Positions 5,330 through 57,496 of a DNA stretch of 64,000 bases are shown one piece after another. The notes beneath the pieces were generated by a model. The model was not told where the DNA came from. It saw nothing but the letters and a program-made list of their open reading frames with translations, and did no database searches. Positions within the stretch are counted from its first letter, which is position 1. Every line of letters starts with the position of its first letter. This stretch comes from Sideroxyarcus sp. (GTDB taxonomy: Bacteria; Pseudomonadota; Gammaproteobacteria; Burkholderiales; Gallionellaceae): the NCBI GenBank assembly GCA_030651895.1, contig JAUSBR010000002.1, positions 62,001 to 126,000 on the forward strand, written 5' to 3'. The translations under genes were made by a program, and so were the position numbers.

Positions 5330-5342
5330 TGCCTCCTGTAGC

Positions 5343-7022: not shown

Positions 7023-7122
7023 TTTGGCTTAAAAAAGTGTCGGCGATGAAGGTGCGGAATTCTACCTGAAAATAACCCCCTCCAGACCCGGCGCAAACCG
7101 TGTGAGTCAGGCGCTTATTTGA

Positions 7123-7128
7123 TAGAAT
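7123..7128 (+). promoter_or_regulatory. Candidate extended -10 promoter for the 7184 gene
   Basis: TAGAAT at 7123-7128 is preceded by TG plus one base (7120-7122), an extended -10 element. It lies about 55 bases upstream of the ATG at 7184. No convincing -35 box is seen. This is pattern recognition only. Confidence 0.35.
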
Positions 7129-7183
7129 CGCGGCTCCCCGGATGGACTTGACCGCCGGACTCTCTTCGGAACATTTGCACGCA

Positions 7184-8170: not shown

Positions 8171-8174
8171 ATCC

Positions 8175-9923: not shown

Positions 9924-9926
9924 GGA

Positions 9927-9955
9927 AAAACGGCGCTTCGGCGCCGTTTTGTTTT
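9927..9955 (+). terminator. Rho-independent terminator after the cyclophilin gene
   Basis: The stem AACGGCGC / GCGCCGTT closes on a TTCG tetraloop and is followed by TTGTTTT. It ends the 7184-9923 operon. The ATG of lpxH directly follows the U-tract at 9956. Confidence 0.85.
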
Positions 9956-10684: not shown

Positions 10685-10692
10685 AGTCTGGA

Positions 10693-11415: not shown

Positions 11416-11918
11416 CCCAGTATGCTTTTGATGACCGCCAGACACAGCAGGGCGTAACCCGCCGCAAGGATATCGTCGAACATCACGCCGAGGCCGCCGC
11501 GCCAGGTCTTGTCGAAATGGCGGATGGGTTCGGGTTTGACGATGTCGAAGTAACGGAACAGGACGAACGCGAGGACCTGCCACGCCACGCCCTCGGGAGT
11601 GAAGAACAGCACCAGCGTGAACGCGACGATCTCGTCCCACACGATGCCGCCGTAATCATGCACGCCCAGCGCCTTGCCGGTGATGTCGCATACCCACACC
11701 CCGAAAGCGAAGGCCCAGATCAGCACCAGCAGGAACATCGCGTCGGTCAGCCGCGGCGCAAGGAACCAGTACATCGGAAAAGCGACCAGCGTGCCCGCCG
11801 TGCCCGGCCCTTTCGGCATCAACCCGGCACCGAAACCGAAGGACAGCAGATGCGCGGGATGGCTGAACAGGAAACGCCAGTCCGGCTTGAATCTCAGTTG
11901 GTCATGCGAAGTGGTCAT
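11412..11918 (-). CDS. pgpA: Phosphatidylglycerophosphatase A
   Basis: A 168-residue inner-membrane enzyme that dephosphorylates phosphatidylglycerol phosphate to phosphatidylglycerol. It shows the family motifs GFGAGLMPKGPGTAGTL (about 28-44), DYGGIVWDEIVAF (acidic active-site region) and the C-terminal FRYFDIVKPEPI...KTWRGGLGVMFDD. Several hydrophobic helices are present. The start overlaps the end of thiL by 17 bases and the stop overlaps the nuclease start by ATGA. The thiL-pgpA order is usual in Proteobacteria. Confidence 0.96.
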   Translation of the reverse strand: MTTSHDQLRFKPDWRFLFSHPAHLLSFGFGAGLMPKGPGTAGTLVAFPMYWFLAPRLTDAMFLLVLIWAFAFGVWVCDITGKALGVHDYGGIVWDEIVAFTLVLFFTPEGVAWQVLAFVLFRYFDIVKPEPIRHFDKTWRGGLGVMFDDILAAGYALLCLAVIKSILG

Positions 11919-12861
11919 AGCCCGACTCCTTGAGAACCATCACGTTGCCGTCCGCCTTGCGCACTTTGCAGCCGCGTCCCGACACGATCTTGCCGATACG
12001 CGTCAGCGGCAGGTGCAAGCGCGATGAGAGTGCCGCGATCTCGTCGCGTTGCGTGTCGGGCGCGGTGAAACACAGTTCGTAATCGTCTCCGCCGGACAGC
12101 ACGCAACTCTGCGCCAGGTCGAGCATCTCTTCGCCGTTGGAAGCGAACAGCGAGGAGACCGGCAATTTGTCGTAGCGCACTTCGGCGGCGACATTGGAGC
12201 TTTCGAGGATGTGGCCGAGATCGGCGAGCAGACCGTCGGAGATGTCGATCATGCTTCTGGCGATACCGCGCAATGACAGTCCCAGGGCGACGCGCGGCTG
12301 CGGCTGCTGCAGTGCGGCAAGGCAGGATGCACGGGCATGTTCCGGCAACTGGATCCTGCCGCGCAGTTGCGCCAGGCCCAATGCGGCATCGCCCAGTTTC
12401 CCGGACACCCAGATGTCGTCGCCGGCCTGAGCACCGCTGCGGCGCACCGCCGTGCGTTTCGGCACTTCGCCGAGGATGGTGACGCAGAGGTTGAGCGGGC
12501 CGCGCGTGGTATCCCCGCCGATGAGCTCGACACCGTATTCGTCGGCCAGCGCAAAGAATCCCTCGCTGAAGCGCTGTAGCCAGTTCTCATCCACCTCCGG
12601 CAAAGACAGGGCCAGCGTCGCCCAGCGCGGCTGCGCGCCCATGGCCGCCAGATCGGAGAGGTTGACGGCCAAGGTCTTGCGGCCAAGCAGGAAAGGATCG
12701 GTGTCGGAAAAGAAATGCGTGCCGCTCACCAGCATATCGGTGGAGATCGCCAGCTCCATCCCTTCCGCGATGCGCAGCAGGGCGGCATCGTCGCCCACAC
12801 CCAATTTCGCGCCGGGGGTGGGACGGGTGAAGAAGCGTTTGATCAGATCGAATTCGGTCAA
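11902..12861 (-). CDS. thiL: Thiamine-monophosphate kinase
   Basis: A 319-residue kinase that makes thiamine pyrophosphate from thiamine monophosphate. Motifs are EFDLIKRFF at the N-terminus, GVGDDAALL (acidic Mg/ATP site), STDMLVSGTHF, AVNLSDLAAMGAQP and SGGDDYELCF. The start is TTG 12861: GGAG lies 7 bases upstream and the protein then begins with the conserved EFDLI segment. An ATG much further upstream would overlap nusB in another frame and add unrelated residues. It lies 19 bases downstream of nusB and overlaps pgpA by 17 bases. Confidence 0.95.
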   Translation of the reverse strand: MTEFDLIKRFFTRPTPGAKLGVGDDAALLRIAEGMELAISTDMLVSGTHFFSDTDPFLLGRKTLAVNLSDLAAMGAQPRWATLALSLPEVDENWLQRFSEGFFALADEYGVELIGGDTTRGPLNLCVTILGEVPKRTAVRRSGAQAGDDIWVSGKLGDAALGLAQLRGRIQLPEHARASCLAALQQPQPRVALGLSLRGIARSMIDISDGLLADLGHILESSNVAAEVRYDKLPVSSLFASNGEEMLDLAQSCVLSGGDDYELCFTAPDTQRDEIAALSSRLHLPLTRIGKIVSGRGCKVRKADGNVMVLKESGYDHFA

Positions 12862-38003: not shown

Positions 38004-38720
38004 ATGGCACAAGTCATCAACACAAACGTCTCGGCCCTGTTCGGTGGAGCAGCCCTGAATAAATCCAACCTGGCCCTGCAAACTGCCATGGCACGCCTGT
38101 CTTCCGGCGTACGCATCAACACCGCCAAGGACGACGCCACCGGCATGGTGACAGCCAGCGGCTACGAAAGCACAATGCGTGGCGCGGCTCAAGCTGCCCG
38201 CAACGCGAACGACGGTATTTCGACCGCCCAGATCAACGACGGTTACCACCAACAGATTTATGAGAACCTGCAGCGCATGCGCGAAATCGCGGTTCAGTTG
38301 GGCGGTACAGCCTCAGGTGCGGAAACAACCGCGCTGGTCGCAGAGAACACCCGTATCTTGGGTTTGGCGACAGCAACCGGTGCCGTGGTGGTTAACTCCA
38401 ACGGTGCAACTGTAACCGGCGTGGGCACTGTAGCCACACTGGGCGCAGGTCTGGCGATCTCCGCAATCGATGCAAACATCACCGCAGTGACCACAGCCCG
38501 TGCAACTTACGGTGCAGATATGGCGACCTTCCAGTCTGCCATTAACAACCTGCAGACACAGTCGGTGAATACCGCAGCCGCTTATAGCCGAGTGATGGAT
38601 ACCGACTATGCGATCGAAACCACAACCATGACCCGCAACATGATTCTGCAACAGGCAGGTACGGCGATGTTGGCACAAGCCAACCAGATTCCGAACAACG
38701 TCCTGACCTTGCTGCGTTAA
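38004..38720 (+). CDS. fliC: Flagellin
   Basis: A 238-residue short flagellin. The conserved N-terminal D0/D1 part (AQVINTNVSALFGGAALNKS...LSSGVRINTAKDDATGM) and the C-terminal part (VMDTDYAIETTTMTRNMILQQAGTAMLAQANQ... about 200-238) are complete. The central variable part (about 115-165) is only a Thr/Val/Ala-rich stretch, so outer domains D2/D3 are missing. The many exposed Thr and Ser residues are candidate O-glycosylation sites for the GT41 enzymes encoded downstream. It is driven by the FliA promoter at 37884, with AAGGAG ahead of the ATG. Confidence 0.95.
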   Translation: MAQVINTNVSALFGGAALNKSNLALQTAMARLSSGVRINTAKDDATGMVTASGYESTMRGAAQAARNANDGISTAQINDGYHQQIYENLQRMREIAVQLGGTASGAETTALVAENTRILGLATATGAVVVNSNGATVTGVGTVATLGAGLAISAIDANITAVTTARATYGADMATFQSAINNLQTQSVNTAAAYSRVMDTDYAIETTTMTRNMILQQAGTAMLAQANQIPNNVLTLLR

Positions 38721-39173: not shown

Positions 39174-40583
39174 ATGGCAGTTTCCTCGGCAACTTCGGGC
39201 TCCAGCATCGACGTCGATGCCATCGTCAAGGGACTGATGTCCGTTGAGCGCATTCCCATCGACAGGCTGGATGCAAAAAAGTCCAGCTTCGAGGCGAAGC
39301 TCAGCGCACTGAGCCTGCTCAAGAGCAAGATGTCCACGCTCCAGACCTCCGCACAGGCGCTGGGGAGTTCAAGTTCGAGCAGCCTGTCCGCCTACAAGGC
39401 GACTTCTTCCGATACCAGCGTAGTCACCGCCACCGCCGCCAGCACCGCAGTCGCCGGCACCTATTCCCTGGCGGTAACCGCACTGGCGCAGTCGCAGAAA
39501 CTGGTCGCCGCAGGGCAAGTCAGCAGCACCGCCGCCATCGGCGACGGCACTTCGACCGTGGTTACCTTTGATTTCGGCACCATCAGCGGCGGCACACTGA
39601 CCAACGGCATCTACACCGGCGCCTCCTTCGCTTCCGGCGGCACCACCGCCAATATCACCATCGACAGCACCAACAACACGCTGGAAGGCATCCGCGACGC
39701 GATCAACACCGCCAACATGGGCGTCTCTGCCACCATCGTCAACGATGGCAGCGGCACCCCCTACCGTCTGGCGCTGTCTTCAAACAACAGCGGTGTGAGC
39801 AACAGCATCAAGATCAGCACCGACGGCGCGAACGCCGCGATCAGCGGCCTGATTGCGCATGACCCGGCCGGCACCCAGAATCTGGCACAGACAGTGACCG
39901 CGCAAAACGCCACTTTCAGCGTCAATGGCATCGCCGTCAGCAAGACCAGCAACACCGTGTCCGACGTCATTGACGGCGTCACCCTGACGCTGAGCAAGTC
40001 GCCGGCGACCGCCACGCTGACCGTGGAGCGCGACACCACCGCCGTCACCACCGCAGTGAGCAGCTTCGTCACCGCTTACAACGACCTGTACACGTCGATG
40101 AAGAACACTTTCGCGTACAAGTCCGGCTCGGCGCTGTCAGGCGACACCACGCTGCGTTCGCTGCAATCCGAGATGCGCGAGATCGTCGCCACCGCAACCA
40201 GCGGCGGCACGCTCGCCAATCTGTTCGAAGTGGGTATCAGCTCGAAATCGGACGGCACCCTGCAGCTGGACAGCGCCAAGCTGAGCAGCAAGATGGCCAC
40301 CAATTTCAGCGATGTCGCCAGCCTGTTCAATTCCACTACCGGCTTCGGCACCCGCTTTGACACCTGGTCGAGCGCAGCACTCGCCTTCGACGGCGCATTC
40401 GCCAACCGTACTTCCAGCTTCAACCAGACGCTCACCTCTCTCTCCAACCAGCGCCTTGCGCTGGAGACACGCATGGCGAGTCTGGAGAAAATGTATCGCC
40501 AGCAATACAGCCAGCTGAACGTGACACTGGCTGGTTTGAACAAGACCAGTTCTTACCTGACCGAACAACTTGCCAAGCTCTAA
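39174..40583 (+). CDS. fliD: Flagellar filament cap protein FliD
   Basis: A 469-residue capping protein (HAP2) that promotes flagellin polymerisation at the filament tip. The N-terminal coiled-coil region (SGSSIDVDAIVKGLMSVERIP, LDAKKSSFEAKLSALS) and the C-terminal one (RLALETRMASLEKMYRQQY...LNKTSSYLTEQLA) are typical. The centre is Thr/Ser/Ala-rich. GAGGGAG lies upstream of the ATG. It heads the fliD-fliS-fliT series. Confidence 0.96.
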   Translation: MAVSSATSGSSIDVDAIVKGLMSVERIPIDRLDAKKSSFEAKLSALSLLKSKMSTLQTSAQALGSSSSSSLSAYKATSSDTSVVTATAASTAVAGTYSLAVTALAQSQKLVAAGQVSSTAAIGDGTSTVVTFDFGTISGGTLTNGIYTGASFASGGTTANITIDSTNNTLEGIRDAINTANMGVSATIVNDGSGTPYRLALSSNNSGVSNSIKISTDGANAAISGLIAHDPAGTQNLAQTVTAQNATFSVNGIAVSKTSNTVSDVIDGVTLTLSKSPATATLTVERDTTAVTTAVSSFVTAYNDLYTSMKNTFAYKSGSALSGDTTLRSLQSEMREIVATATSGGTLANLFEVGISSKSDGTLQLDSAKLSSKMATNFSDVASLFNSTTGFGTRFDTWSSAALAFDGAFANRTSSFNQTLTSLSNQRLALETRMASLEKMYRQQYSQLNVTLAGLNKTSSYLTEQLAKL

Positions 40584-45848: not shown

Positions 45849-46529
45849 TCAAGCCTTGCCCGTTTCCCACCCAAGATTCTTTGCCCCCGTCTTCAGGCAA
45901 TCAGAGTAATAGCCTGAGAACCCAGCCTTCTCCATCAGCCCTGCCACCCGGCTGATATCGTACTCGACCCGATGAAGAGCAAAGCTGCGACCGTCGAACG
46001 TGGCGAAGGCGGCTCTTGGGTCGTTATCCCTAGGCTGCCCGACCGATCCGGGATTGCAGTAGATCTTGTCGCCGAACTGGGCGATGACCTGTCTGTGGGT
46101 ATGGCCGGTGGCGAAGTAGGTACCTTCGACCCGGGAGAAATAGTCGTCGCGAGGATTCAGATATTCATCGATGGGGTCGCCCCAGCCGCCGTGCACCATG
46201 CGCAGGTCGCCGACATTCATATAGACCGGAAGGCTGCGTAACCAGGCAAGGTTCTCTGCCGTGATGACTTGTTTCTGATATTGCAGGCAGTCATTGGCGC
46301 TGTTCGATCTGGGGCAGAAGCTCTGCGCAGCCATGTACCAGTCGTGATTGCCCATGACCGACTTGATCTTCCGTTTGCGCAGCTCATCGCAGCATTCGTT
46401 TATCTCGGAATAGTATCCAGCCGTATCGCCCAGGCAATAGATATCATCGATGCCCATGCCATCGATACGCGCCAGCACTTCGCGTAGCGCGGTGTAATTG
46501 CCGTGAATATCAGAGATGAGTGCGATCAT
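45849..46529 (-). CDS. Calcineurin-like metallophosphoesterase
   Basis: A 226-residue protein of the YfcE/MJ0936-like phosphodiesterase family: SDIHGNYTAL (metal site), CLGDTAGYY, VMGNHDWYM, MVHGGWGDP, ATGHTHRQVI and CNPGSVGQPRD. The substrate is unknown. It overlaps the ATP-grasp gene by 20 bases and ends the glycan-island gene series, so it may hydrolyse a sugar-phosphate or nucleotide-sugar intermediate. That is inference from context. Confidence 0.88.
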   Translation of the reverse strand: MIALISDIHGNYTALREVLARIDGMGIDDIYCLGDTAGYYSEINECCDELRKRKIKSVMGNHDWYMAAQSFCPRSNSANDCLQYQKQVITAENLAWLRSLPVYMNVGDLRMVHGGWGDPIDEYLNPRDDYFSRVEGTYFATGHTHRQVIAQFGDKIYCNPGSVGQPRDNDPRAAFATFDGRSFALHRVEYDISRVAGLMEKAGFSGYYSDCLKTGAKNLGWETGKA

Positions 46530-47472
46530 AAAAAATCAAATCCTCTGTGTACCTGACTGCATAACCTTGTTTCAGCACCGGTTGGTCTGGAACCTTGCCG
46601 TCGAGCATCCATTCGACACTCATGGCGCTTTCGTTATAACCGAAGGCGGCGCGCAACGAGGTGCTGGATGAGATGCGCGGATTGATCTCCAGCAATCTCA
46701 ACTGGCCGCCGTCAACCCGGAACTGGAAATTGGTCGGGCCGACCGGCTTGAATATCTTCCCGAAGTGCAGCAGTGCGTCCTGAACTCCCTCCAGCTCGAC
46801 CGTCTCGGCCGTTTCAGTGAACCCGGCTTCGGAAAGCGTCCGCTTGAGGGTATGAAAAGCATACAGCCGACTGTCGCGATCAAAGAACGCCGATGTCGTG
46901 TATTCCTCTTCTTCAGTGCCGATCACGGGCTGGATCATCATGCCCTGCCCTGCTCCGCCCAGATGCTTCCTGAGTTCGTCGATGTCGTTGACGATGACTA
47001 TCCCTTTCGAGCCCGAGCCCTTTCTGGGTTTCAGCAGCAGCGGGAATCGTTGTGATGTCTCATCGAATTCCAGGCTGGTCGGGATCGCGTAAGGCGATTT
47101 ATTCTTTACCAGACTCTGATAGAACTGCCACTTGTCGGCACATAAGCGGATCAGGTCCGCATCGTTCAGCAGCACCTGCGCGCCACTCTGCTCTATTGTG
47201 TCGCGGTGCTCGTTCCAGGCAACGACATCCACCTCGATGCCGGGGATGACCATCGACACCTGGTGCCGTTGAATGACATCAAGCAGCCAGGGGAGATAGC
47301 TCTCATGATTGGTGAGCGGCGCTTTTTCAAACACATCGCAAAAAGCCGGTGCTGCCGACCGTTCATACACGGTCGTGCCGATCAATCGGCACTCGGGATG
47401 GCTCAGCCGCAGAGATTTCAAAATCCCGTAACCGATGATGCCGGAAGCACCTGATACCAGAATCGTTCTCAT
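46510..47472 (-). CDS. ATP-grasp domain protein
   Basis: A 320-residue protein with an N-terminal Rossmann-like pre-ATP-grasp domain (TILVSGASGIIGYGILKSL) and an ATP-grasp core (about 115-300). The core has LLLKPRKGSGSKGIVIV for ATP binding and FRVDGGQLRLLEINPRISSSTSL for Mg/catalysis. ATP-grasp enzymes ligate a carboxylate to an amine or thiol, so amide decoration of an amino sugar is one possibility. ATG 47472 overlaps the ThDP enzyme stop (TGATG). It overlaps the metallophosphoesterase start by 20 bases. Confidence 0.87.
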   Translation of the reverse strand: MRTILVSGASGIIGYGILKSLRLSHPECRLIGTTVYERSAAPAFCDVFEKAPLTNHESYLPWLLDVIQRHQVSMVIPGIEVDVVAWNEHRDTIEQSGAQVLLNDADLIRLCADKWQFYQSLVKNKSPYAIPTSLEFDETSQRFPLLLKPRKGSGSKGIVIVNDIDELRKHLGGAGQGMMIQPVIGTEEEEYTTSAFFDRDSRLYAFHTLKRTLSEAGFTETAETVELEGVQDALLHFGKIFKPVGPTNFQFRVDGGQLRLLEINPRISSSTSLRAAFGYNESAMSVEWMLDGKVPDQPVLKQGYAVRYTEDLIFYDRTHL

Positions 47473-49199
47473 CAGAAGATGCAATCCCTTTTGATCTGCT
47501 GGTTCTCTTCGTCGGAAAGCAGCGGCGTTTGCAGGTCGATCGCTGCGCCGGGTTCCGGGTTGTTCATGATCCTCGTTGGCAGTGCGACTTCGATGATCAT
47601 GGCGGCCGGGCTCTGTAACAATTTCCTGACCTGCGCGTATTGCTCCACCGCGTCTATCCTGATGTATTCAAGGCTGTAGGATGGCGCGATGGCCGAATAA
47701 TCGGGGGCTTCGTAGCCATCCACCGAACCGGTGGTGCGGTCATCAAAGATCCGCTCCTGCAACCGCCGGATCATGCCCAGACAATTGTTGTTCAGCACGA
47801 TGATCTTGATCGGCAGCTTGTCGCGTTTGACGGCTTGCAGTTCCTGGATGTTCATCATCAGGCCGCCGTCCCCATTGATGGATATCACCGTCGCCTTCGG
47901 CCAGGCATAAGCTGCGCCTATCGCCGCGGGAAGAGAAAATCCCATCGAACCGTACCCGCCCGTGTTCAGCAATCTATTCCCCTTCCTCAGGCGGAAGGAT
48001 TGAGCCGTGAACATCTGGTTCTGTCCAACATCGGCACACACCACCAAATGCTCGGGCAGGTCTTCAGAGATCGCGTGCAGAAAGTCGTTGGCATCCACCT
48101 CCCGACGGCTCGTGTCGTGGGAGGGATAGCGCGCTTTCCAGCGGGCGATCACCTCGTGCCATTTCGGGAAGGACAGCTTCGGGAAGTCAGCCTTGAGGAT
48201 CTGCTCCAGGAAATTCCCTGCGCTTGAATAGAGGTTGATGTTGCCCTTGCCGCTGCCGGGCTGCACCCGGTCGAGTTCTGTACGATCAATGTCCACCCGG
48301 ATGATCTTTGCCTCACCGGCAAATCTGGCCTTGTCACCCGCGAGTTGCCGCTCGTCCAGCCGCGAACCCAGAATGATCAGGCAGTCGCAATTCGCCAGCG
48401 CGAAGTTGGCATACCGGTTGCCGTAATGCCCTATGAAACCGACGAAGGAAGAATGCTCGTGCGGCAACACGTCGAGACCGCAGAGGGAAGCCACCGCCGG
48501 GATGGGCGCCTTGTCCAGGAACTGGAGAATGGCGCTTCTTGTCGATTCGTTCCTGCAGCCGCCCCCCAACAACAGCAACGGCCTTTTGGCGTTTTGCAGC
48601 GCTTCCAGTATCTGCGGGACATCGATCTTGTCGAATGCGCTTGTCACTTCAGGCGTGTAGCCCCTGAGCTCTTCCACATTGATGTCGCTTCTGGCCACAT
48701 CATAAGGAAGATCGATCAGCACCGGACCTTTGCGTCCTTCCTTCGCGATGTGAAGCGCTTTCTCCAGACAGAACCTTACATCCTTCGGATCATTGATCTT
48801 GACTGCGTATTTCGTTATCCCGGCAGTCAGTGCGACCATGTCCATCTCCTCGAAGGCGTTCTGCCTGACCTCGGGAGATTTTTTGACCGCTTCAGAATGG
48901 ACGCTGCCGACCAGGAACAGGCAGGGGATGGAATCAAAAAAAGCGTTGGCGATACCGGCGACGAGATTGCAGGAACTCGGCGCCCCCGAGGAGGTGGCCG
49001 CGGACACATCCTCCCTGACCATGGCAAACGCGTTGGCGGCAAAAGCGGCACCCTGCTCGTGATAGTTCAACACGAATCTCTGCCCCTTGCTCCCGGCGAT
49101 CGCATCGAGCAAGTCCGCGTTGAATCCGCCGATCTGGCCAAACACGGTATCGACCCCGTTGTTACTCAACAGATCGACTACATATTTGGCGACTTTCAT
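47472..49199 (-). CDS. ThDP-dependent enzyme, acetolactate-synthase-like
   Basis: A 575-residue three-domain thiamine-diphosphate enzyme. The N-terminal PYR domain has GVDTVFGQIGGFNADLLDA and the catalytic Glu in NYHEQGAAFAANAFA. The central domain (about 190-330) resembles the FAD/NAD-like domain. The C-terminal PP domain has INGDGGLMMNIQELQ...LNNNCLGMIR, the ThDP-Mg motif. It is not next to an ilvN regulatory subunit; it sits among sugar genes. YerE, which adds a two-carbon branch to a deoxy sugar, is a precedent for such a role. It is tightly coupled to the ATP-grasp gene. Confidence 0.88.
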   Translation of the reverse strand: MKVAKYVVDLLSNNGVDTVFGQIGGFNADLLDAIAGSKGQRFVLNYHEQGAAFAANAFAMVREDVSAATSSGAPSSCNLVAGIANAFFDSIPCLFLVGSVHSEAVKKSPEVRQNAFEEMDMVALTAGITKYAVKINDPKDVRFCLEKALHIAKEGRKGPVLIDLPYDVARSDINVEELRGYTPEVTSAFDKIDVPQILEALQNAKRPLLLLGGGCRNESTRSAILQFLDKAPIPAVASLCGLDVLPHEHSSFVGFIGHYGNRYANFALANCDCLIILGSRLDERQLAGDKARFAGEAKIIRVDIDRTELDRVQPGSGKGNINLYSSAGNFLEQILKADFPKLSFPKWHEVIARWKARYPSHDTSRREVDANDFLHAISEDLPEHLVVCADVGQNQMFTAQSFRLRKGNRLLNTGGYGSMGFSLPAAIGAAYAWPKATVISINGDGGLMMNIQELQAVKRDKLPIKIIVLNNNCLGMIRRLQERIFDDRTTGSVDGYEAPDYSAIAPSYSLEYIRIDAVEQYAQVRKLLQSPAAMIIEVALPTRIMNNPEPGAAIDLQTPLLSDEENQQIKRDCIF

Positions 49200-49229
49200 T
49201 TTGTATTCAACTCCTCTGCGCGTTTCATG

Positions 49230-50171
49230 CTACAGCACCAGTTCCGCATAGCCGAACCCCTCTTTGCCGAAATGATTGCCACAGTAAAACATGATGAACT
49301 TGTCATTGATCTTCGCAATATGGGGATACTCGATCATCTGCGAGTCCCAGCCGGTCTCGGAGACATCGATCCCGGCCTGTGCATCATCGCGCGCCCAACT
49401 CACCAAGTCATCCGAATATGCGTAGCCGATGCGGTAGGCCCGGTCTTTGGTCGCCCTGAAATCCAGCCCGTAGCGGTAACAGAAGAACATATGGTATCTG
49501 TCGCCCAGTTTCATGATCGCCGGCGTGGTCTGGCATTCGTTCTCCACCTTGAACGGGATGACCTGCTTGGTGTTCCTGGCCCAATCGATGCCGTTGGTCG
49601 AGGTGGCGTGCTTGATGACGTACTGCGACTCAAGCTTGCCACCTTCTTTGATCCATTGCACACCGGTGTGGTAGAACATATGCCAGTCATCCTCGGCCAG
49701 TTTGTAGACGACCGGAGTTGAATTCAAGTACGGTTCGTTCAGGGTCGGGCCGAGCAGCGGACCCTTGCCGACTTTTACAAACCTCTCGCCATCCTGACTT
49801 TTGGCCAGGCCGATCTCCCAGTCATAGGGAACGCTGAAGCCGCGCGACCAGCCCACATAGTAAAGATAAAACTCACCACCGTGTCTGACGACACTGATCG
49901 GCATCGAACCGAACTCGTCGAACTCACCCAGGCCGCCCAGATCCATCAGAGGCTGCGGGGATATCTTGATCACCTCAAAAGTGTTCTTATCCAGATCGAC
50001 GAAACCGCCATAGGCCCGGCACATGCCATCCTTGTAGTCTTCCCGGGTGGCGAAATAGACCCGAATGAAGTCATCGAACTCCAATGGAAAAGGACACTGG
50101 GCGTGACTGAACATCCATGGATAGTTGTTGTTCGGCGCAAAGATGCGCCCTTTTTTTTCCCACTTGAACAT
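49230..50171 (-). CDS. Five-bladed beta-propeller, GH43/GH130-like protein
   Basis: A 313-residue protein with repeated propeller blades. Blade-like signatures recur: YYVGWSRGFSVPYDWEIGLAKSQDG, WHMFYHTGVQW, HATSTNGIDWARN, YHMFFCYRYG, YAYSDDLVSWARD and FIMFYCGNHFGKEGFGYAE. This matches glycosidase-related (GH43/GH130-like) folds common in surface-polysaccharide loci. Acidic residues that could be catalytic exist (FDEFGSMP, WDSQMIEYP) but activity cannot be judged. No signal peptide is seen, so it is probably cytoplasmic. ATG 50171 has AAGGG upstream and is preferred to 50186. Confidence 0.82.
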   Translation of the reverse strand: MFKWEKKGRIFAPNNNYPWMFSHAQCPFPLEFDDFIRVYFATREDYKDGMCRAYGGFVDLDKNTFEVIKISPQPLMDLGGLGEFDEFGSMPISVVRHGGEFYLYYVGWSRGFSVPYDWEIGLAKSQDGERFVKVGKGPLLGPTLNEPYLNSTPVVYKLAEDDWHMFYHTGVQWIKEGGKLESQYVIKHATSTNGIDWARNTKQVIPFKVENECQTTPAIMKLGDRYHMFFCYRYGLDFRATKDRAYRIGYAYSDDLVSWARDDAQAGIDVSETGWDSQMIEYPHIAKINDKFIMFYCGNHFGKEGFGYAELVL

Positions 50172-50254
50172 TGCCACCCTTTCCATAGCGCCTCAGAGAA
50201 TCGCTGAGGCGGTTTGTTTGACACCGATCACCAGACCTTTCTTCAACCGGCCCA

Positions 50255-52306
50255 TCACCGAATTTTCTTTTCCGTCTCCGTTGTCTTCAGCCAATCCTGC
50301 CAGATCATACGCAGTCGTGTCTCGAAGTTGCGCGCGAACGACTTCACGTCCCACTGCGGCGAAGCCGCCATGCGCTTGCCCAGCGTGGCGCGCAGCTCGG
50401 CCAGCCGCGCCGGGTCGGCCGCCAGCGCGCAGGCCTTGTCGACATAGTCGCCGACATCGCGCGCGATGAATTCATCCAGTTGCGCGCCTGCCAGAACGGC
50501 AGCCGTACTTCTGCCGCGCCAGTCGTCGCCTTCGATGGCGATCACCGGCACGCTCTGCCACAGGGCATTGATCGTGGTCGAACCACTGCTGTAGGGAAAG
50601 GTGTCAATCGCGATATCCACCCACTCGTAACACTTCTTCATCTGCTTGAACGAGGACAATCCCTCCATGATGAGCCGTTGCGGGTCGACTCCCCGCTCGC
50701 GGAAGAAGCCGGATATCCGTTCGCGCTCCGAGCGCAGGCGCAGGTTGTTGGATTTCAAATACAGACGCGCATCCGGAACACGCTTGAGCAATCTCGCCCA
50801 GACCTCCAGCACCCCCTCGCCGATCTTGAAGAAATCGCCGAAACAGCCGAAGGTGACATACCCGTTCCGCAGACTCGGCGGGGGAGGCATTACCGGCGGC
50901 TCACCCATATCCCATGCGCAGATGGTGCTGGTCGGCATGCGGAACACCTTCTCCACGTAGTCAGCCTCTTCGCCCGGGCGGATGCAATAGTCGTCGGCGA
51001 TTGCGTAATTGAATGCTTTCACGCCGACAGTGCACGGCAGGTTGTACCAGTTGACCTGGATGGGTGCGGGCTGCCGTAGCAGCGTCTCGAAATGGTTGGG
51101 GGTGCGGATACGCCCGTTGATATCAAGCATGATGTCAATCACATCGTCGCGCACCAGTTTGAAGAATGCCTCGCCCGACATCGGGCTGATGTCGCGGTAA
51201 CGGTCGACGACAGTGCGGACATATTCACCGCCGGGGCCGAAGTTGTAGCAGAACAGCTCTATCCTGCTGCGGTCATACAGTTTGAAAAATGGGATCAGCG
51301 TGTATACCCCGATGACTCCGGCGAAATAATCACCGACGATGCCGACGCGCAAGCGCCGGTTCGGATCGCGCTTGTTCTTGAACCCGGATGGATTCGGCAG
51401 CGCATCCTCATGCTCGTGCGTCCGTGCCCATTCGCGCCCCTCCAAAAACAGGTCATGTGAAGAATGCCGCGCGCTGGCGAGGTAGCACTTGAGCAGGAAG
51501 TTGTGATTTTCGACCGAGTCATCGTGTACCAGATCGTCGCGCGCCATCTTCTCGGCCTCGTCGATCAGACCGGAATTGTAGAGCGCCTCCCTGACCGAGG
51601 CCGATTCCTGCATGGCGTTCCTCGCCTCCTGCAAGCGAACGCTGGCAAACGCATCGCCCGGACTGCACGACAGCACCTGCTCCAGATAAGGCACCGCCTC
51701 ATCCGGCAGCCCGAGTGCGATCTTGTTCAGCGCGATGAGATTCAGCACGTTGATGTCATCCGGAGCCAGCAGGTGCGTCTCAAGCAGACTTTCCAGCGAA
51801 ACATGCAGGTCGTCCATGCGGTAGAGGATCATTCCATGACGCACACGGGCCGCAATGAGATCGGATTGCAATTCGATCGCTTGCTGGCAATAGCGCAGGG
51901 CTTCCTGCATGCGACAGAGATCGAACAGCACGGTGGATACGTTGAAGTGCGCCTGCGCCGAATCGGGCTGAAGTTCTAGTACACGCCGGTAGTATTCCAG
52001 CGACTGCTCGTTTTGCTTGAGCGCCGCCAGCACCGCAGCAAGTTCGTTGAGCGCCTCCACCGCGTCCGGTCGCAGCGACAGCGCGTAGCGGAAGAAATTC
52101 TCGGCCAGCGTGGGTTGAGCTTGCCGGTTCATCGCCCTGCCAGCCAGCAGCACCGCATCGAAATGCTCCGGCTCCTGTTCCAGCACCTGCTGGCAAGCAG
52201 CGAGCGCCTCCTGCATCAAGCCTTTTCCAAAGAAAGAGCGCGCGCCGTCCCAAAGAGTCGCCGCCTCTTCTCCCATCCCGGTCTGCGCATTGTGTTGTTG
52301 GTTCAA
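50255..52306 (-). CDS. TPR-GT41 (OGT/FlmG-like) protein glycosyltransferase
   Basis: A 683-residue protein. The N-terminal part (about 10-250) consists of tetratricopeptide repeats (LQPDSAQAHFNVSTVLFDLCRMQEALRYC and others). The C-terminal part (about 305-675) is a bacterial O-GlcNAc-transferase-like GT41 domain, with RVGIVGDYF, MLDINGRIRTPNHFETLLRQPAP, YVTFGCFGDFFKIGEGVLEVW and FPYSSGSTTINALWQSVPVIA. The usual catalytic-loop GH is INGR here. TPR-GT41 proteins such as FlmG bind and glycosylate flagellin. The start TTG 52306 has GGGGA upstream; ATG 52276 is an alternative. Confidence 0.88.
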   Translation of the reverse strand: MNQQHNAQTGMGEEAATLWDGARSFFGKGLMQEALAACQQVLEQEPEHFDAVLLAGRAMNRQAQPTLAENFFRYALSLRPDAVEALNELAAVLAALKQNEQSLEYYRRVLELQPDSAQAHFNVSTVLFDLCRMQEALRYCQQAIELQSDLIAARVRHGMILYRMDDLHVSLESLLETHLLAPDDINVLNLIALNKIALGLPDEAVPYLEQVLSCSPGDAFASVRLQEARNAMQESASVREALYNSGLIDEAEKMARDDLVHDDSVENHNFLLKCYLASARHSSHDLFLEGREWARTHEHEDALPNPSGFKNKRDPNRRLRVGIVGDYFAGVIGVYTLIPFFKLYDRSRIELFCYNFGPGGEYVRTVVDRYRDISPMSGEAFFKLVRDDVIDIMLDINGRIRTPNHFETLLRQPAPIQVNWYNLPCTVGVKAFNYAIADDYCIRPGEEADYVEKVFRMPTSTICAWDMGEPPVMPPPPSLRNGYVTFGCFGDFFKIGEGVLEVWARLLKRVPDARLYLKSNNLRLRSERERISGFFRERGVDPQRLIMEGLSSFKQMKKCYEWVDIAIDTFPYSSGSTTINALWQSVPVIAIEGDDWRGRSTAAVLAGAQLDEFIARDVGDYVDKACALAADPARLAELRATLGKRMAASPQWDVKSFARNFETRLRMIWQDWLKTTETEKKIR

Positions 52307-52404: not shown

Positions 52405-53499
52405 CTACCCCCTGAATTTGACGAACAGTGCCTTGCCGCATTCGAACGAACGCTCGATGTCGGCGGCCCGTTCTTGCAACAAGGCATCGCCGACACGGCG
52501 CGGGCCGTCGCCGTGCACCCACAGATAATCGTCGAGGATGAGCCAACCGTTCTTGTCCAGCAACGGTAACCAAGCCTCGCAATCTAGCTTCACCTGCGCG
52601 TAATCGTGGTTGCCGTCGATGTGCATCACCGCGATGCGGCCCTGATATTCGGTGCGGCCGAAGGTTGGGCTCTCCACCGCCTTGTCGCGCTTGTAGATCT
52701 CGCAGCCGCGCACCGATTCCTGTTGCAGGCAGTTGAAGCTGCCGTAGCCGATGGGATAGGTGTTGACGGCGAAATCCTGCGGCGGCACGTCCCAGCGCCA
52801 TTCGTTCACCAGCCCGACCCGCACCGTCTCGGGCGAATCATGCTGCGTGGCGGCGGCGGCCTGCCAGGGATCGATGGCGAGCACGTTGCCAATGCGGTAG
52901 CGCCGCGACAGCAGGGCCAGCACCGAGGCCGACTTGCCCACCAGCGAACCGACCTCGACCACGTCGCCCTTGGGCGCGCTGCCGAAGATGGCCATCATCG
53001 CCGCGATCTTCTGCTCGTTCGATTCGCCGTAGATATTGACCGACATGCGGAACACCGCCGCGATCTCGATATCGCTGAGGTCGCACCTGCCGCCCGCGCA
53101 CTGGTCGATGAAACCGCGCCAGGACGCCACCTTCGCCATCAGGCGGTCGAAGCGTTCGATCTCGCGCTTGATCGGCGAGCTGCCGATCAGCCGCAGCGAC
53201 AATCCCTTTTCGGCGATGAAGCGCTCCAGCCATGAATAGGCGGCGGCCACCGGCGCGTACACGCGGGTGATGTTGTGCTGTTGCACCAGCGCCATGAAGC
53301 GCGCGGGGAACTCGGGATCGTCCACATAGGGCAGCACGGTCAGCGTGCCCACTGCGGCGGCCAGGTCCGCATCCCAGACCGAGGATGCCGCGACCACGCG
53401 CTCGTCGCGTTCGCGCGACACTTCAAGATATTCGCGCCCGTCCGGATGCGCGGCGGGAAACACCAGCGTCGCCGGTTCGATCACTGCGGATGCGTTCAT
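52405..53499 (-). CDS. SAM-dependent methyltransferase with ATP-grasp-like N-terminal domain
   Basis: A 364-residue protein. The C-terminal half (about 165-350) is a class I methyltransferase of the Methyltransf_24 type: GDVVEVGSLVGKSASVLALL (SAM-binding loop), VLAIDPWQ, IAVMHIDGNHDYAQVKLDCEAW and LDDYLW. The N-terminal half (about 1-140) resembles the small pre-ATP-grasp domain (RVYAPVAAAYSWLERFIAEKGL). The start overlaps the fused GT41 gene stop by ATGA. It probably methylates the flagellin sugar or its precursor, inferred from position. Confidence 0.82.
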   Translation of the reverse strand: MNASAVIEPATLVFPAAHPDGREYLEVSRERDERVVAASSVWDADLAAAVGTLTVLPYVDDPEFPARFMALVQQHNITRVYAPVAAAYSWLERFIAEKGLSLRLIGSSPIKREIERFDRLMAKVASWRGFIDQCAGGRCDLSDIEIAAVFRMSVNIYGESNEQKIAAMMAIFGSAPKGDVVEVGSLVGKSASVLALLSRRYRIGNVLAIDPWQAAAATQHDSPETVRVGLVNEWRWDVPPQDFAVNTYPIGYGSFNCLQQESVRGCEIYKRDKAVESPTFGRTEYQGRIAVMHIDGNHDYAQVKLDCEAWLPLLDKNGWLILDDYLWVHGDGPRRVGDALLQERAADIERSFECGKALFVKFRG

Positions 53500-56400
53500 T
53501 TATCCTCCCCGCGCAGCGCGCGATGCAGACATTCCACGACCACATCCTGCGTCTCCTCGTCCAGATCGGGATACATCGGCAGGCACAGTACGCGGTGCGA
53601 GATATCCGTCGCCACCGGCAGGTTGCCCGGCACGGACGAGGACAGGCCGCGGTAGACCGGGAACTCGCTGATCAGCGGATAGAAATAACGCCGCGCATAG
53701 ACGCCGCACTCGCGCATGCGCCGGTACAGCTCGTCGCGCGAGATCGGGAAGTCGTCCTCGATGAAGATGGGGAAGTAGGCGTAGTTGTAGCGGATGTCGT
53801 CCGGGATGGCGTGCATGCGGATGCCGCGCACCTCCTTGAGGATGGCGCGATAGCGCGCATCCACCTTCTTGCGCCGCTCCAGCGCATCGTCGATATATTG
53901 GAGTTGCAGCAGGCCGAACGCGGCCTGCACCTCGTTCATCTTGCCGTTGATACCGGGGCCGATCACCGTGACCTCGTCGGCGAAGCCGAAGTTCTTCAGG
54001 TAGTCGATGCGGTGCTTGGTCTTGGCATCGCGGCAGATGATGGCTCCGCCCTCGAAGGTGTTGAACACCTTGGTGGCGTGGAAACTGAGGATGGACATGT
54101 CGCCATACTCCAGCACCGAACGATTGCCATCCAGCCGCATGCCGAAGGTGTGCGCCGCGTCATAGATCACCTTGAGACCGTAGGTGTCGGCGATACGCTC
54201 GATCTCGTCCACCGCGCAGGGCACGCCGTACACGTGCACCGGCAGGATACCCGTGGTATGCGGCGTGATCGCCGCCTCGATCTTCTTCGGGTCCAGATTG
54301 AGCGTCACCGGATCGATGTCGACGAACACCGGCCTGATGCCGTTCCAGTCCAGCGCGTGGCTGCTCGCCACAAAACTATAAGGTGTAGTGATCACCTCGC
54401 CGGTCACGCGCAAGGCCTGCAAAGCCGTGACCAGCGCCAGGGTCGCGTTGGCGAAGAGCGAGATGTGCTCGACGCCGAGATATTTCGCCAGTTCCTGCTC
54501 CAGCTCCTGATGGTAGGGGCCGTTGTTGGTGAGTTGCTTGCTGTCCCATATCTTCTGCAGGTAGGGAATGAATTCTTCCAGTGGCGGCAACAGCGGCTGC
54601 GTGACGAAGATCGGTGACGATTTGTTCGGCTGTTTCATTGCTGCGTCTCCTGCATCGCTGTGCACACTCTCTTTCTGCACGCCCGCCTCGAATGCCTGCG
54701 CTGCGCCATCCGCACACCAGCGCCGCCACATGACGCGCAGCGCCTGCGCCAGCGATGCGGCAAGCAGTTCCGGCTGCGACATCGGCGAATCGGCGACGCG
54801 CTGGCGCAATCCCGCGCGCAAGACGGACAAGGCGGCAAGATCGCCCGCCAACGCCCGGCCTTTGCTGACGAATTCTTCAGCGTCATGGGCAACGAGCTCG
54901 TCGAGCCCGACATTGCCAAGGATGGATGCGCCCGAACGCGCGGCCGGCGTATCGCCCGCCAGCGTCAGGGTGGGCACACCCATCCACAGGGCGTGCAGCG
55001 TAGTGGTGCCGCCGCTGTAGGGGAAAGTATCCAGACTGATGTCCACCTGCTGATGCAGCGCCAGATAGTCCGCCATGCTGCAACGCTGTTTGAAGATCAG
55101 CCGGTCGCGCGCGATACCCTGTTCTGCAAACCACTTGCCCAATTTCTCTTCGCCCCCGTCCTGCGGCATGCCGGCCAGCAGCATCTTCGAGTCCGGCAAG
55201 GCCTGCAGCAGGCGCGCCCACAGCGCGATCACTTCCGGATTCAGCTTGCTCAGTCGGTTGAAGCTGCCGAAAGTCACATAGCCGTTCTTCAGCGCGGGCA
55301 GCTCGCCGGCGGCGGGCGCGTCCTTGCTCGGCAGGAACGGCACCGAGGCGGGCAGATGCACGATCTTCTCGGTGAACTGCTGTTCCATCGCCCCGCTCGG
55401 CACCAGGCCGCGGTCGGTGAGGTAATAGTCCATGGCGCGCAGGCCGGTGGTGCAGGGATAGCCGATCCAGCTCGCCTGCACCGGCGCGGGTTTTCTGGCG
55501 AAGGTCAGCAGGCGGTTGCGCGCGGTATGGCCGGACAGGTCGATCAGGATGTCGATGCCGTCGGTGCGGATCTGCTCGGCCAGTTCGGCATCGCTCAGCG
55601 CGACCACAGACTGCCAGTGCGCAAAGTGGCCGCGCAGGCGCTTGCTGGTGTCGTCGTCGATGATGTGATTGGAGTAGGCATACAGTTCCAGTTGCAGATG
55701 CCCGTCAAGACCCGACAATATCGGCTCGATATAGGTCGCCACCACGTGGCTGCGCAGGTCGCCCGAAACGAAACCGACGCGCAGCTTGCGCTCCGCCTCG
55801 CGGGAATTGCTGAATTCCGGCACGGTTGCGCGGAACGGTGCCTCGTAGCGCTCGCCGAAACGGCGATGTTCCTCAAACAATTCATCCGCCGCCACGCCGG
55901 AACTCTGCGCCAGACAGAACAGCAGATTGCTGAAGGCGACCGCATTGTCGGGTTGTTTGTCGAGCACACGGCGGAAACTGGCCACCGCTTCCTGCAAGCG
56001 ACCCTGTTCGTGCAGGATGCCGCCGAGGTTGGCATGCGTCTCCGCCAGATCGGGGCGCAGTGACATTGCGCGCAGACAGCTCACTTCGGCCTCATCCAGC
56101 CGGCCCAGTGCCTTGAGCGTGAGCGCCAGATTGCCGTTGGCTGCATAGCCTTCAGGATCAAGCTTCAGCGCCCTGCGGCATACATTCTCGGCCTCTTGCG
56201 CGCGGCCCATGTCGTTCAGGATGCCGCCCAGATTGCCCAAGGCATCGGCATAGTTTGGATTGAGCTTCAGCGCCTGGCGGCAGCTGGCTTCGGCCTCCTT
56301 GAAGCGACCCAACCGCTGTAGCGAAGCGGCCAGATTGCTGTGTGCCGTGGCGAAACCCGACTTGAGTTTCACCGCATGGCGGAAGCTGGCGACCGCCTCG

Positions 56401-57110
56401 GCATGCCGCCCGAGATCGCTCAGGACGATACCGAGATTGTTGTGCGCCTCGGCATCCTTGGGCGACAGCGCGGTCGCTTTCTGCATCGGCGCCAGAGCCT
56501 CCGCATTGCGCCCCAACTGGCTGAGCACCACACCCAACATCTTCCAGCCTGCCCAGTGCTGCGGATAACGCAGTGTCAGCGATTGCGCCTGCTCTGCGAC
56601 CTCGGCATAGCGCCCCTTGTTGAAAGTGTCTTCCAGTTGCTTGAGTTCTTTGGCGTCGGGGACTTTATTGTTTTGCGGAGCCGGCTGCCGGACGCCGTTC
56701 CCGGAGGTCGCCGGGTTTTGCTTCCCGACTCCCAGCCGCGCTTTCAGCGTCTCTACCTGCTCGCCCTGCAACCCCTGCTGCTCGGCCAATGCCAGCACCT
56801 GGCGCGCGGTGTCTTCCTGCCCGGTCTGCGCCAGTGCATCGATATAACTCAGCCAGTATTGGCCCTGTGCCGGATCGGCATCGAGGGCGTTATTGAAATA
56901 GCCCAGCGCGGCATCCGTCTGTTGCGCCTGCATCGCCAGCAATCCAAGATTGTGGTTGGCCGGTGCGTGGCGCGGATCCAGTTGCAGGATCATGCGGTAC
57001 AACTCGTCGGCCTTTTGCGTCTGGCCGGCCTGGTGTTGTGCGACGGCGAGACCGAAGGCCTCATCTATCGCCTGCGCGACATCCTGCTGCGGTGGAGTAC
57101 TGGTCGTCAT
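53496..57110 (-). CDS. Fusion: TPR-GT41 protein glycosyltransferase + VioA-like sugar aminotransferase
   Basis: A 1204-residue fusion. Residues about 15-400 are tetratricopeptide repeats (for example DAEAHNNLGIVLSDLGRHAEAV). Residues about 435-810 form a GT41 domain with the catalytic loop DLSGHTARNRLLTF, FNRLSK and DTFPYSGGTTTLHALWMGVP. Residues 825-1204 are a complete DegT/DnrJ/EryC1/StrS aminotransferase: VTQPLLP, LTNNGPYHQELE, VYDAAHTFG-type VIYDAAHTFG and the PLP-lysine SFHATKVFNTFEGG. These resemble VioA, which makes dTDP-4-amino-4,6-dideoxyglucose. An internal AGGAG and ATG (54638) mark the joint. It lies 56 bases after fliE and overlaps the methyltransferase by ATGA. Confidence 0.92.
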   Translation of the reverse strand: MTTSTPPQQDVAQAIDEAFGLAVAQHQAGQTQKADELYRMILQLDPRHAPANHNLGLLAMQAQQTDAALGYFNNALDADPAQGQYWLSYIDALAQTGQEDTARQVLALAEQQGLQGEQVETLKARLGVGKQNPATSGNGVRQPAPQNNKVPDAKELKQLEDTFNKGRYAEVAEQAQSLTLRYPQHWAGWKMLGVVLSQLGRNAEALAPMQKATALSPKDAEAHNNLGIVLSDLGRHAEAVASFRHAVKLKSGFATAHSNLAASLQRLGRFKEAEASCRQALKLNPNYADALGNLGGILNDMGRAQEAENVCRRALKLDPEGYAANGNLALTLKALGRLDEAEVSCLRAMSLRPDLAETHANLGGILHEQGRLQEAVASFRRVLDKQPDNAVAFSNLLFCLAQSSGVAADELFEEHRRFGERYEAPFRATVPEFSNSREAERKLRVGFVSGDLRSHVVATYIEPILSGLDGHLQLELYAYSNHIIDDDTSKRLRGHFAHWQSVVALSDAELAEQIRTDGIDILIDLSGHTARNRLLTFARKPAPVQASWIGYPCTTGLRAMDYYLTDRGLVPSGAMEQQFTEKIVHLPASVPFLPSKDAPAAGELPALKNGYVTFGSFNRLSKLNPEVIALWARLLQALPDSKMLLAGMPQDGGEEKLGKWFAEQGIARDRLIFKQRCSMADYLALHQQVDISLDTFPYSGGTTTLHALWMGVPTLTLAGDTPAARSGASILGNVGLDELVAHDAEEFVSKGRALAGDLAALSVLRAGLRQRVADSPMSQPELLAASLAQALRVMWRRWCADGAAQAFEAGVQKESVHSDAGDAAMKQPNKSSPIFVTQPLLPPLEEFIPYLQKIWDSKQLTNNGPYHQELEQELAKYLGVEHISLFANATLALVTALQALRVTGEVITTPYSFVASSHALDWNGIRPVFVDIDPVTLNLDPKKIEAAITPHTTGILPVHVYGVPCAVDEIERIADTYGLKVIYDAAHTFGMRLDGNRSVLEYGDMSILSFHATKVFNTFEGGAIICRDAKTKHRIDYLKNFGFADEVTVIGPGINGKMNEVQAAFGLLQLQYIDDALERRKKVDARYRAILKEVRGIRMHAIPDDIRYNYAYFPIFIEDDFPISRDELYRRMRECGVYARRYFYPLISEFPVYRGLSSSVPGNLPVATDISHRVLCLPMYPDLDEETQDVVVECLHRALRGEDK
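54636..54651 (-). promoter_or_regulatory. Internal Shine-Dalgarno and ATG at the fusion junction
   Basis: AGGAG (54651-54647) lies 8 bases before ATG 54638, in frame at residue 825 of the fused gene, exactly where a stand-alone aminotransferase would begin (MKQPNKSSPIFVTQP). It could allow separate synthesis of a 380-residue aminotransferase. Confidence 0.55.
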
Positions 57111-57166: not shown

Positions 57167-57496
57167 TCACACCTGCATGTTCATGATGTCGTTGTAGGCG
57201 GACACCACCTTGTTGCGCACCTGCACGGCCGTCTGGAACGAGATACTAGCCTTTTGCATGGCGATCATGGTATCTGAAAGACTGACTTTGTCGTCCCCCA
57301 GCACGAAAGCCTCCTGCATCGCCTGGGCCTGGCGCTGGGTCTGGTTGACACCGTCCAGCGACGATTTCAGCACATTGGCGAAGTCCACCCCGCCGCTGGC
57401 TGCGGTCGGCGCCTGTGCCGGCTGTCCCTGTGCCGCCGCCATCGCGGCGCGCATCTGACTCAACAGGCTATCCACATTGCTCACATTCATACTCAT
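57167..57496 (-). CDS. fliE: Flagellar hook-basal body protein FliE
   Basis: A 109-residue export-junction/MS-ring-rod adaptor protein. The N-terminal half is variable and Ala-rich; the C-terminal half has FANVLKSSLDGVNQTQRQAQAM, FVLGDDKVSLSDTMIAMQKAS and NKVVSAYNDIMNMQV, the family core (last residues about 90-109). GGAGG lies 6 bases before the ATG at 57496. It is divergent from fliFGHIJK and co-directional with the glycan island, which it may help to transcribe. Confidence 0.95.
   Translation of the reverse strand: MSMNVSNVDSLLSQMRAAMAAAQGQPAQAPTAASGGVDFANVLKSSLDGVNQTQRQAQAMQEAFVLGDDKVSLSDTMIAMQKASISFQTAVQVRNKVVSAYNDIMNMQV

Follow-up and report, generated by a model that had tools for sequence, protein, structure and literature searches.

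Two neighbouring genes that are separate but overlapping in relatives form one frame in a Sideroxyarcus lineage, as seen in the 64,000-nucleotide stretch of DNA analysed here (the window). The frame, on the minus strand at 53496-57110, is uninterrupted over 1204 codons from an ATG (57110) to a TAA and encodes in a single ORF, in this order, TPRs, a GT41 glycosyltransferase domain, a linker and a DegT-family aminotransferase. The original prediction of a real in-frame fusion between a complete TPR-GT41 protein and a complete DegT aminotransferase with its PLP lysine is confirmed by the open frame, the Pfam domains and K1014, and is amended in that the two enzymes are encoded by overlapping neighbours in relatives. 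The GT41-DegT fusion combines the domains of known enzymes in a new way that is rare and recurrent; it is no new kind of system. The features of the locus are listed in Table 1.

Table 1. The fused gene, its parts and its surroundings (positions in the window)
Feature	Position	Strand	Evidence
Fused gene, TPR - GT41 - linker - DegT aminotransferase, 1204 aa	53496..57110	-	ORF, Pfam, same frame in L030/G042
TPR repeats, residues 1-400	55911..57110	-	Pfam TPR families; dN/dS 0.12 vs sibling
GT41 domain, residues 401-805	54696..55910	-	PF13844; residues H455, H528, K622; dN/dS 0.07
Linker, residues 806-824	54639..54695	-	pLDDT <50 at 811-830; dN/dS 0.50; SD -7.4
DesI/VioA-like DegT aminotransferase, residues 825-1204	53496..54638	-	PF01041, PLP Lys1014, own ATG codon 825
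fliE, adjoins fused gene	57167..57496	-	Pfam, NCBIfam
PF13578-domain methyltransferase	52405..53499	-	overlaps fused gene's stop (TAAATG)
Second TPR-GT41 of the island	50255..52306	-	Pfam; matched in L009, L010, L084, L160
GH130-like, TPP enzyme and ATP-grasp genes of the island	46510..50186	-	Pfam/NCBIfam
Flagellin	38004-38720		Pfam
fliD	39174-40583		Pfam

The Pfam TPR families span about residues 20 to 400 of the fused protein, which scores 175.7 bits against PF13844 (GT41; gathering cut-off 25) and 343 bits against PF01041 (DegT; cut-off 19.8, residues 845-1195). In an alignment of 66 rows (A1), H455, H528 and K622 are invariant in all 35 rows covering GT41, as are K1014 and D984 throughout the 39 rows covering DegT; we take these five residues to have catalytic roles. 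The nearest solved chains to the GT41 domain are 5djs, SPINDLY and XcOGT. By its domain match and residues, this part is a predicted protein glycosyltransferase of the TPR-containing GT41 class. An AlphaFold model of residues 401-1204 displays two well-folded domains (mean pLDDT 89) connected by the low-confidence residues 811-830, with no defined packing between them (pTM 0.54).

In both sequence (E 1e-66) and fold, the closest solved aminotransferase to the DegT domain is DesI (2po3), whose alignment identifies K1014 as the PLP lysine. The DesI equivalog model, TIGR04427, is the top-scoring one among the NCBIfam models listed, but its 298.7 bits lie below the curated cut-off of 650, and the domain is therefore called DesI-like only. 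The product of DesI itself is dTDP-4-amino-4,6-dideoxyglucose. The domain resembles the enzymes that form 4-amino-4,6-dideoxy sugars; the predicted VioA-like character holds at the level of this sugar type, with DesI as the best match, and the identity as VioA is reduced to 'DesI/VioA-like'. The DesI and VioA-type 4-aminotransferases, whose PLP lysine aligns with K1014, are known as stand-alone enzymes, unlike the domain described here. Genes supplying dTDP-4-keto-6-deoxyglucose are encoded elsewhere in the genome, namely RmlA (506.8 bits, cut-off 360.65) and RmlB (513.6 bits, cut-off 365.1).

As the source genome is a draft that is 73% complete, a separate second copy of the GT41 or DegT gene is possible, and the draft state is also what could favour an assembly or sequencing artefact that deleted a stop between GT41 and DegT. 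However, locus L030 of a second assembly, UBA12482 (G042), has 96.3% DNA identity to the window over 5.1 kb and shares the 3615-nt frame with a gap-free protein alignment despite the 3.7% DNA difference (L030 corresponds to locus L109 of G042, identical over 3663 bases). Between the window and this sibling, dS is 0.137 and overall dN/dS 0.10, with 0.12 for the TPRs, 0.07 for GT41, 0.02 for DegT and 0.50, from 9 differences, for the linker; both halves of the fused frame are under purifying selection in this pair. The frame without indels in UBA12482 and this selection make an assembly error very unlikely and, with the same architecture present in six genomes of another genus, its probability is close to nil. 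The absence of any stop or frameshift at residues 810-825, on which the prediction depended, is upheld by the same open junction in the second assembly.

The origin of the junction can be read from the genus survey, in which 34 genomes were searched and the 15 with a DegT match at ≥69% were classed by the upstream gene. Two are fused, eight carry GT41 directly upstream in a separate overlapping frame, and five display neither arrangement, GT41 being absent upstream of DegT within the short locus examined. The stop of GT41 and the start of DegT overlap by ATGA in seven of the eight unfused pairs and by 8 nt in the other one. The distance from the motif near the end of GT41 (TTCGA, TTTGA or TTCGG) to the DegT ATG is 50 nt in L009, L010, L084 and L094, 47 nt in L092 and 49 nt in L093, and 54 nt in both fused genes. 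The GT41 stop was lost in the window strain and UBA12482 via a net +1 frame change upstream of the DegT start. Within the genus, the fusion occurs, among the matches listed, only in the window strain and this one close relative.

The old DegT start is kept in the fused gene as an ATG at codon 825, next to a Shine-Dalgarno sequence still in the linker (GCAGGAGACGCAGCA). Its energy is -7.4 in the window and -11.0 in the sibling; those of unfused DegT starts range from -7.0 to -10.3, except for L023 at -3.0. Only 2.4% of 1145 codon positions have as strong a Shine-Dalgarno, but codon 825 ranks only third in this respect among 20 internal in-frame ATGs. Given this start and its Shine-Dalgarno, a free aminotransferase is probably made from the same mRNA besides the full-length chain. 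The fusion into one frame stands, whereas a single chain as the only product is less probable. The aminotransferase could even be chiefly a separate 380-aa protein initiated at ATG 825, the GT41 tail being tolerated rather than useful. This would fit the resemblance of the Shine-Dalgarno to those of unfused genes, its greater strength in the sibling despite a changed surrounding linker, the weak constraint and modelled disorder of this linker, and the restriction of the fusion to two strains of the genus among the matches listed. However, as there is no stop, ribosomes in the GT41 frame that do not drop off must continue into DegT, TPR-GT41 still has a low dN/dS in the fused pair, and another genus has the same fusion without a clear internal start, so that a merely nominal fusion is possible but rather unlikely.

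This other genus, g58, also belongs to the Burkholderiales and carries the TPR-GT41-DegT architecture in at least 6 of 62 genomes, bringing the total among the matches listed to at least eight genomes in two genera. As these figures are those of the best matches listed, divergent fusions may have been missed; open-frame length alone was insufficient, and fused genes or junction stretches were translated as proof. The architecture is rare in the surveys, among the matches listed, and the prediction stands in this respect. No description of a GT41-DegT or TPR-GT-aminotransferase fusion was found in the PMC articles searched (subscription journals lying mostly outside this search). The fusion is not unique to the window. 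The g58 fusions possess Pro/Ala-rich linkers, and the Shine-Dalgarno analysis found no clear internal DegT start in them. In trees of reduced, hand-picked sets (30 of 66 GT41 rows and 49 of 138 DegT rows) that omit the window's own locus, L148, a single clade of all fused DegT domains is rejected (AU test, p-AU 0.0004), whereas a single origin is nearly but not rejected for GT41 (p-AU 0.056). A single origin of all fusions by transfer is therefore discarded on the DegT tree and only nearly so on the GT41 tree. The AU-test DegT tree contains two changes between fused and separate states. The g58 fused rows are not monophyletic in the DegT trees, since L200 (G795), whose DegT is now separate, nests inside them.

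Other candidates were dismissed as fusions. Stops lie within the match in G101 (two stops), in G1075 (two TAA) and in G816, G817 and G797 (a TAA, confirmed in the sequence itself for G816 and G797). For G1127 an open frame of 1421 aa was listed, but a stop lies between its in-frame parts and its DegT frame has 395 aa. In G834 and G992, the frame is open upstream of DegT, but GT41 lies in a different one. A distinct fusion was found in L225 and its relatives, which encode a chitin-synthase-type glycosyltransferase with a C-terminal DesI-like DegT domain (1037 aa); they belong to a third genus, where at least 6 of 25 genomes have the junction in one frame. Like the window gene, this fusion joins a glycosyltransferase to a C-terminal DesI-like aminotransferase but, unlike it, has chitin-synthase domains and no TPR or GT41 match.

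The fused gene sits in a flagellar cluster, in which flagellin, FliD, FliE, FliF and FliG were matched by Pfam; FliE, FliF and FliG exceed their NCBIfam cut-offs, whereas FliD is below its own. Beyond fliE lie fliF, fliG and the gene of an ATPase, presumably FliI judging from its T3SS-type ATPase domains. On the other side, the PF13578 methyltransferase is also the next gene in the unfused loci L009, L010 and L084, and the order of the GH130-like, TPP enzyme and ATP-grasp genes matches that of the unfused L160. None of the window's flagellar genes was matched in the 18-kb stretches around the six g58 loci; flagellin therefore need not be the acceptor of the g58 fusions.

Among known systems, FlmG of Caulobacter crescentus, like the fused protein, combines N-terminal TPRs with a glycosyltransferase domain, C-terminal in FlmG; it acts in flagellin O-glycosylation, its TPR part binding flagellins (PMC7591256). 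It is described there as a 596-residue protein with TPR and GT parts only, which transfers pseudaminic acid; unlike in the fused gene, the aminotransferase of that system, FlmB, is a protein apart from it. Enterobacterial flagellin glycosylation islands contain GT41 and DegT genes, as does the window locus, but there DegT appears as a protein in its own right; most of their GT41s also carry a methyltransferase domain (PMC4875605), so that GT41 fusions to sugar-modifying enzymes were already known. The GT41/DegT pair is also separate in L035, L047, L056, L058, L059 and L062. In the viosamine pathway of Mimivirus, L142 joins the N-acetyltransferase of the donor sugar to a predicted GT (PMC9614988); this is an acetyltransferase and not an aminotransferase, it serves a viral fibril polysaccharide, and the passages of that source on L142 mention no GT41.

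The preferred reading, which we consider likely, is that two operon neighbours became fused specifically in this lineage, giving one chain for donor synthesis and flagellin glycosylation. In related genomes, a TPR-GT41 gene precedes a DesI/VioA-like DegT gene, usually with the ATGA overlap. In the fused polypeptide, the TPRs would bind flagellin and the GT41 domain would glycosylate it, while the C-terminal domain would convert dTDP-4-keto-6-deoxyglucose and glutamate to dTDP-4-amino-4,6-dideoxyglucose, which other island enzymes would modify before transfer. The fusion would thereby keep the synthesis of the donor sugar and its transfer together in a single particle, at a 1:1 ratio. Subunits of complexes are over-represented among overlapping gene pairs (PMC10666635), and co-translation of the overlapping pair probably gave the same 1:1 association before fusion. 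The retained internal start may make the weight of the full-length chain uncertain; the g58 fusions look like a more settled form.

A stronger form of coupling would be true substrate channelling, in which the aminotransferase passes the NDP-4-amino sugar straight to the fused GT41 and a free-amine sugar reaches flagellin. It could explain that the same pair is fused in two genera with DegT parts that do not form one clade, and that a third genus joins a chitin-synthase-type GT to a DesI-like DegT. However, in P. syringae N-acylation precedes transfer and VioT requires the N-acylated sugar (PMC3927599), so that the product must leave the aminotransferase first, which argues against a direct hand-off. 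Furthermore, the flagellin of B. cenocepacia bears Qui4N(3-OHBut) (review table), the neighbouring island genes suggest further modification of the sugar, and the model lacks defined domain packing. Channelling is therefore improbable, and any coupling of sugar synthesis to transfer would, given the P. syringae pathway, be less direct. It is only tentatively proposed that the bifunctional chain both makes a 4-amino-4,6-dideoxy sugar nucleotide and glycosylates flagellin, and that the repeated fusions reflect selection for physical coupling.

In the FlmG and P. syringae systems, the transferase is a protein distinct from the sugar enzymes. Here, three states are seen: overlapping genes, a fusion with the old internal start, and a Pro/Ala-linker fusion without a clear internal start. 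This series offers a direct test of whether donor-sugar amination and protein glycosylation act as one complex. Furthermore, a DesI/VioA-like enzyme tied to a particular GT41 would aid the prediction of flagellin sugars in those beta- and gammaproteobacteria where the pair occurs.

The fusion of a TPR-GT41 glycosyltransferase with a DegT-type aminotransferase is real, rare and recurrent. As held by the original prediction, translation of the window gives a single open frame of 1204 codons, in which Pfam recognizes TPR repeats (about residues 20-400), a GT41 domain (PF13844, 175.7 bits) and a DegT domain (PF01041, 343 bits, residues 845-1195). The start of the next gene, encoding a PF13578 methyltransferase, overlaps the stop of the fused gene (TAAATG). 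The window belongs to a draft genome that is 73% complete. The same 1204-codon frame is carried by a sibling record (DMCN01000040.1, Gallionellaceae UBA12482; 96.3% DNA identity to the window over 5.1 kb), whose DNA is identical across 3663 bases to locus L109 of genome G042 and whose protein aligns with that of the window without gaps; the stop or frameshift near residues 810-825 that would speak against the fusion is absent. Between window and sibling, dN/dS is 0.12 for the TPRs, 0.07 for GT41 and 0.02 for DegT, and 0.50, on only 9 differences, for the linker. Given the second record and these ratios, an assembly error is very unlikely to be the source of the fused frame.

Coordinates of the features discussed
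Feature	Coordinates	Strand
Fused TPR-GT41-DegT gene (window)	53496-57110	-
Acetolactate-synthase-like TPP enzyme and carbamoyl-phosphate-synthase-like ATP-grasp protein, in the flagellar sugar island (window)	46510-49199	-
Extra DNA, about 8 kb, between the methyltransferase and second GT41 genes (sibling genome G042, locus L159)	3678-12160	
Chitin-synthase-type GT-DegT gene, 1037-aa frame (genome G1376, locus L225)	3616-6726	+

In overlapping surveys that counted matches crossing the junction in one frame without stops, the fusion was found, among the matches listed, in at least 2 of 34 genomes of the window's genus, 2 of 399 of the order, 1 of 369 of the class (804-aa query) and 1 of 398 of the phylum, the last with a query from g58, a second Burkholderiales genus. 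Among the matches listed, g58 itself has it in at least 6 of 62 genomes and its family (g58 query) in at least 5 of 392. Overall, at least eight genomes carry the fusion (G000, that of the window, G042, G299, G802, G829, G830, G846 and G847). The order survey also lists two contigs with apparent open frames, 2513 aa in G341:C1 and 2509 aa in G370:C13, each showing two separate GT41 matches.

The state of the pair was scored in the 15 genomes, of 34 searched in the genus, with a DegT match of at least 69%. Two are fused, eight have a separate GT41 immediately upstream of DegT (seven with an ATGA overlap, one with an 8-nt overlap), and in five no GT41 was found upstream within the short locus examined. 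The eight include, under other identifiers, L009, L010 (Sideroxyarcus), L084 (Sideroxydans), L092 and L094, where the TGA that ends GT41 shares bases with the DegT ATG, and L093, where the overlap is 8 nt; all keep separate frames. Counted up to the DegT ATG from the TTCGA/TTTGA/TTCGG close to where GT41 ends, the junction is 50 nt long in L009, L010, L084 and L094, 47 in L092 and 49 in L093, versus 54 nt in both fused genes. Relative to the commonest length, fusion therefore corresponds to a net +4, i.e. +1 in frame. Directly before the DegT start, L084 carries CACAGCGATGCAGGAGA as the window does, and its GT41 reads it in another frame. The fused gene of the window shares only 60-63% identity with L009, L010 and L084 over the GT41 part, versus 85-91% over the adjacent DegT; divergence is thus much faster in the transferase than in the neighbouring sugar enzyme. 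Locus L165 (G047) has a tandem pair of GT41a-like genes ahead of DegT.

In the DegT tree, the two fused Gallionellaceae genes group with unfused rows of their own genus. In the tree tests of fusion origin (INDEPENDENCE), forcing all fused DegT rows together lowers lnL by 206.8 (p-AU 0.0004), and a single clade is rejected; the same constraint on the GT41 tree is not clearly rejected (p-AU 0.056). An unfused pair with an ATGA overlap (G931, L204) adjoins the g58 fusions on both trees. With the reservation of the GT41 value, we conclude from these trees that the same pair was probably fused twice. The separate DegT of G795 (L200) is nested within the fused g58 clade and may perhaps reflect a later split of the fused gene; the GT41 gene that matches best in this genome is found about 3 kb downstream of it. 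All six g58 fused genes have Pro/Ala-rich linkers. In their six 18-kb stretches, the window's flagellar genes have no match, and the sole other window gene matched is a GGDEF gene (L158). Partial scans of neighbours at three loci revealed Rieske oxygenases (L158, L184, L188), hexapeptide transferases (L158, L188), methyltransferases (L184, L188) and an acyltransferase (L188).

The old DegT start persists as codon 825, with a Shine-Dalgarno pairing energy of -7.4 in the window and -11.0 in the sibling. This resembles unfused DegT starts (-7.0 to -10.3; L023, -3.0), so that DegT could possibly also be made separately. Codon 825 ranks third among 20 internal in-frame ATGs, and 2.4% of 1145 codon positions match its strength. 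In g58, in-frame starts near the DegT start reach at best -6.6 (L171, L172; L158, -5.9), weaker than every DegT start measured except L023, and internal initiation there is unclear, though conceivable. An AlphaFold model of residues 401-1204 (66-row alignment; mean pLDDT 89, below 50 at residues 811-830; pTM 0.54) predicts two good domains whose position relative to each other is not defined.

Among solved structures, the DegT domain comes closest in sequence to DesI with its TDP-sugar product (2po3, E 1e-66), which also ranks first of the aminotransferases in the fold comparison. The DegT domain scores under the DesI equivalog cut-off and is therefore predicted only as a DesI/VioA-like aminotransferase. 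RmlA and RmlB, which supply dTDP-4-keto-6-deoxyglucose, exceed their cut-offs elsewhere in the genome. For GT41, the nearest sequence is that of a Thermobaculum enzyme (5djs) and the nearest fold that of SPINDLY. The island sits between flagellin/fliD and fliE/fliF/fliG, and its order fliE-GT41-DegT-methyltransferase-GT41-GH130-TPP-ATP-grasp-phosphoesterase is retained, unfused, in G014 (L160). The sibling's extra DNA includes another GT41 match and a DegT match (32% identity).

As in this island, GT41 and DegT are present in Enterobacteriaceae flagellin islands, where most GT41 also have methyltransferase domains (PMC4875605). Mimivirus L142 likewise joins a donor-sugar enzyme to a predicted GT, the enzyme being a viosamine-pathway acetyltransferase (PMC9614988). 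Like the window's gene, that of G1376 ends in a DesI-like DegT, but its GT domains are of chitin-synthase type; within its genus, 6 of 25 genomes have a single frame across the junction (only this one translated), and two more match the query through its synthase part alone (frames of 666 and 670 aa). Taken together, these cases make proteins that join a GT to an enzyme of donor-sugar synthesis a known kind, of which the GT41-DegT combination itself has no description found in the searched PMC literature.

The TPRs of FlmG, another TPR-GT protein, can bind flagellins (PMC7591256), and flagellins carry Qui4N(3-OHBut) in B. cenocepacia (PMC12355684) and modified viosamine in P. syringae (PMC3927599). 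That the fusion couples sugar synthesis to transfer, as originally proposed, is plausible but unproven. Direct hand-off from DegT to GT41 is not favoured, because the P. syringae transferase requires an N-acylated sugar (PMC3927599). Favoured instead is that fusion would give co-localisation and a fixed 1:1 supply of donor-sugar enzyme and transferase, consistent with the way the unfused genes overlap at ATGA, since such overlaps are enriched among genes for complex subunits (PMC10666635).
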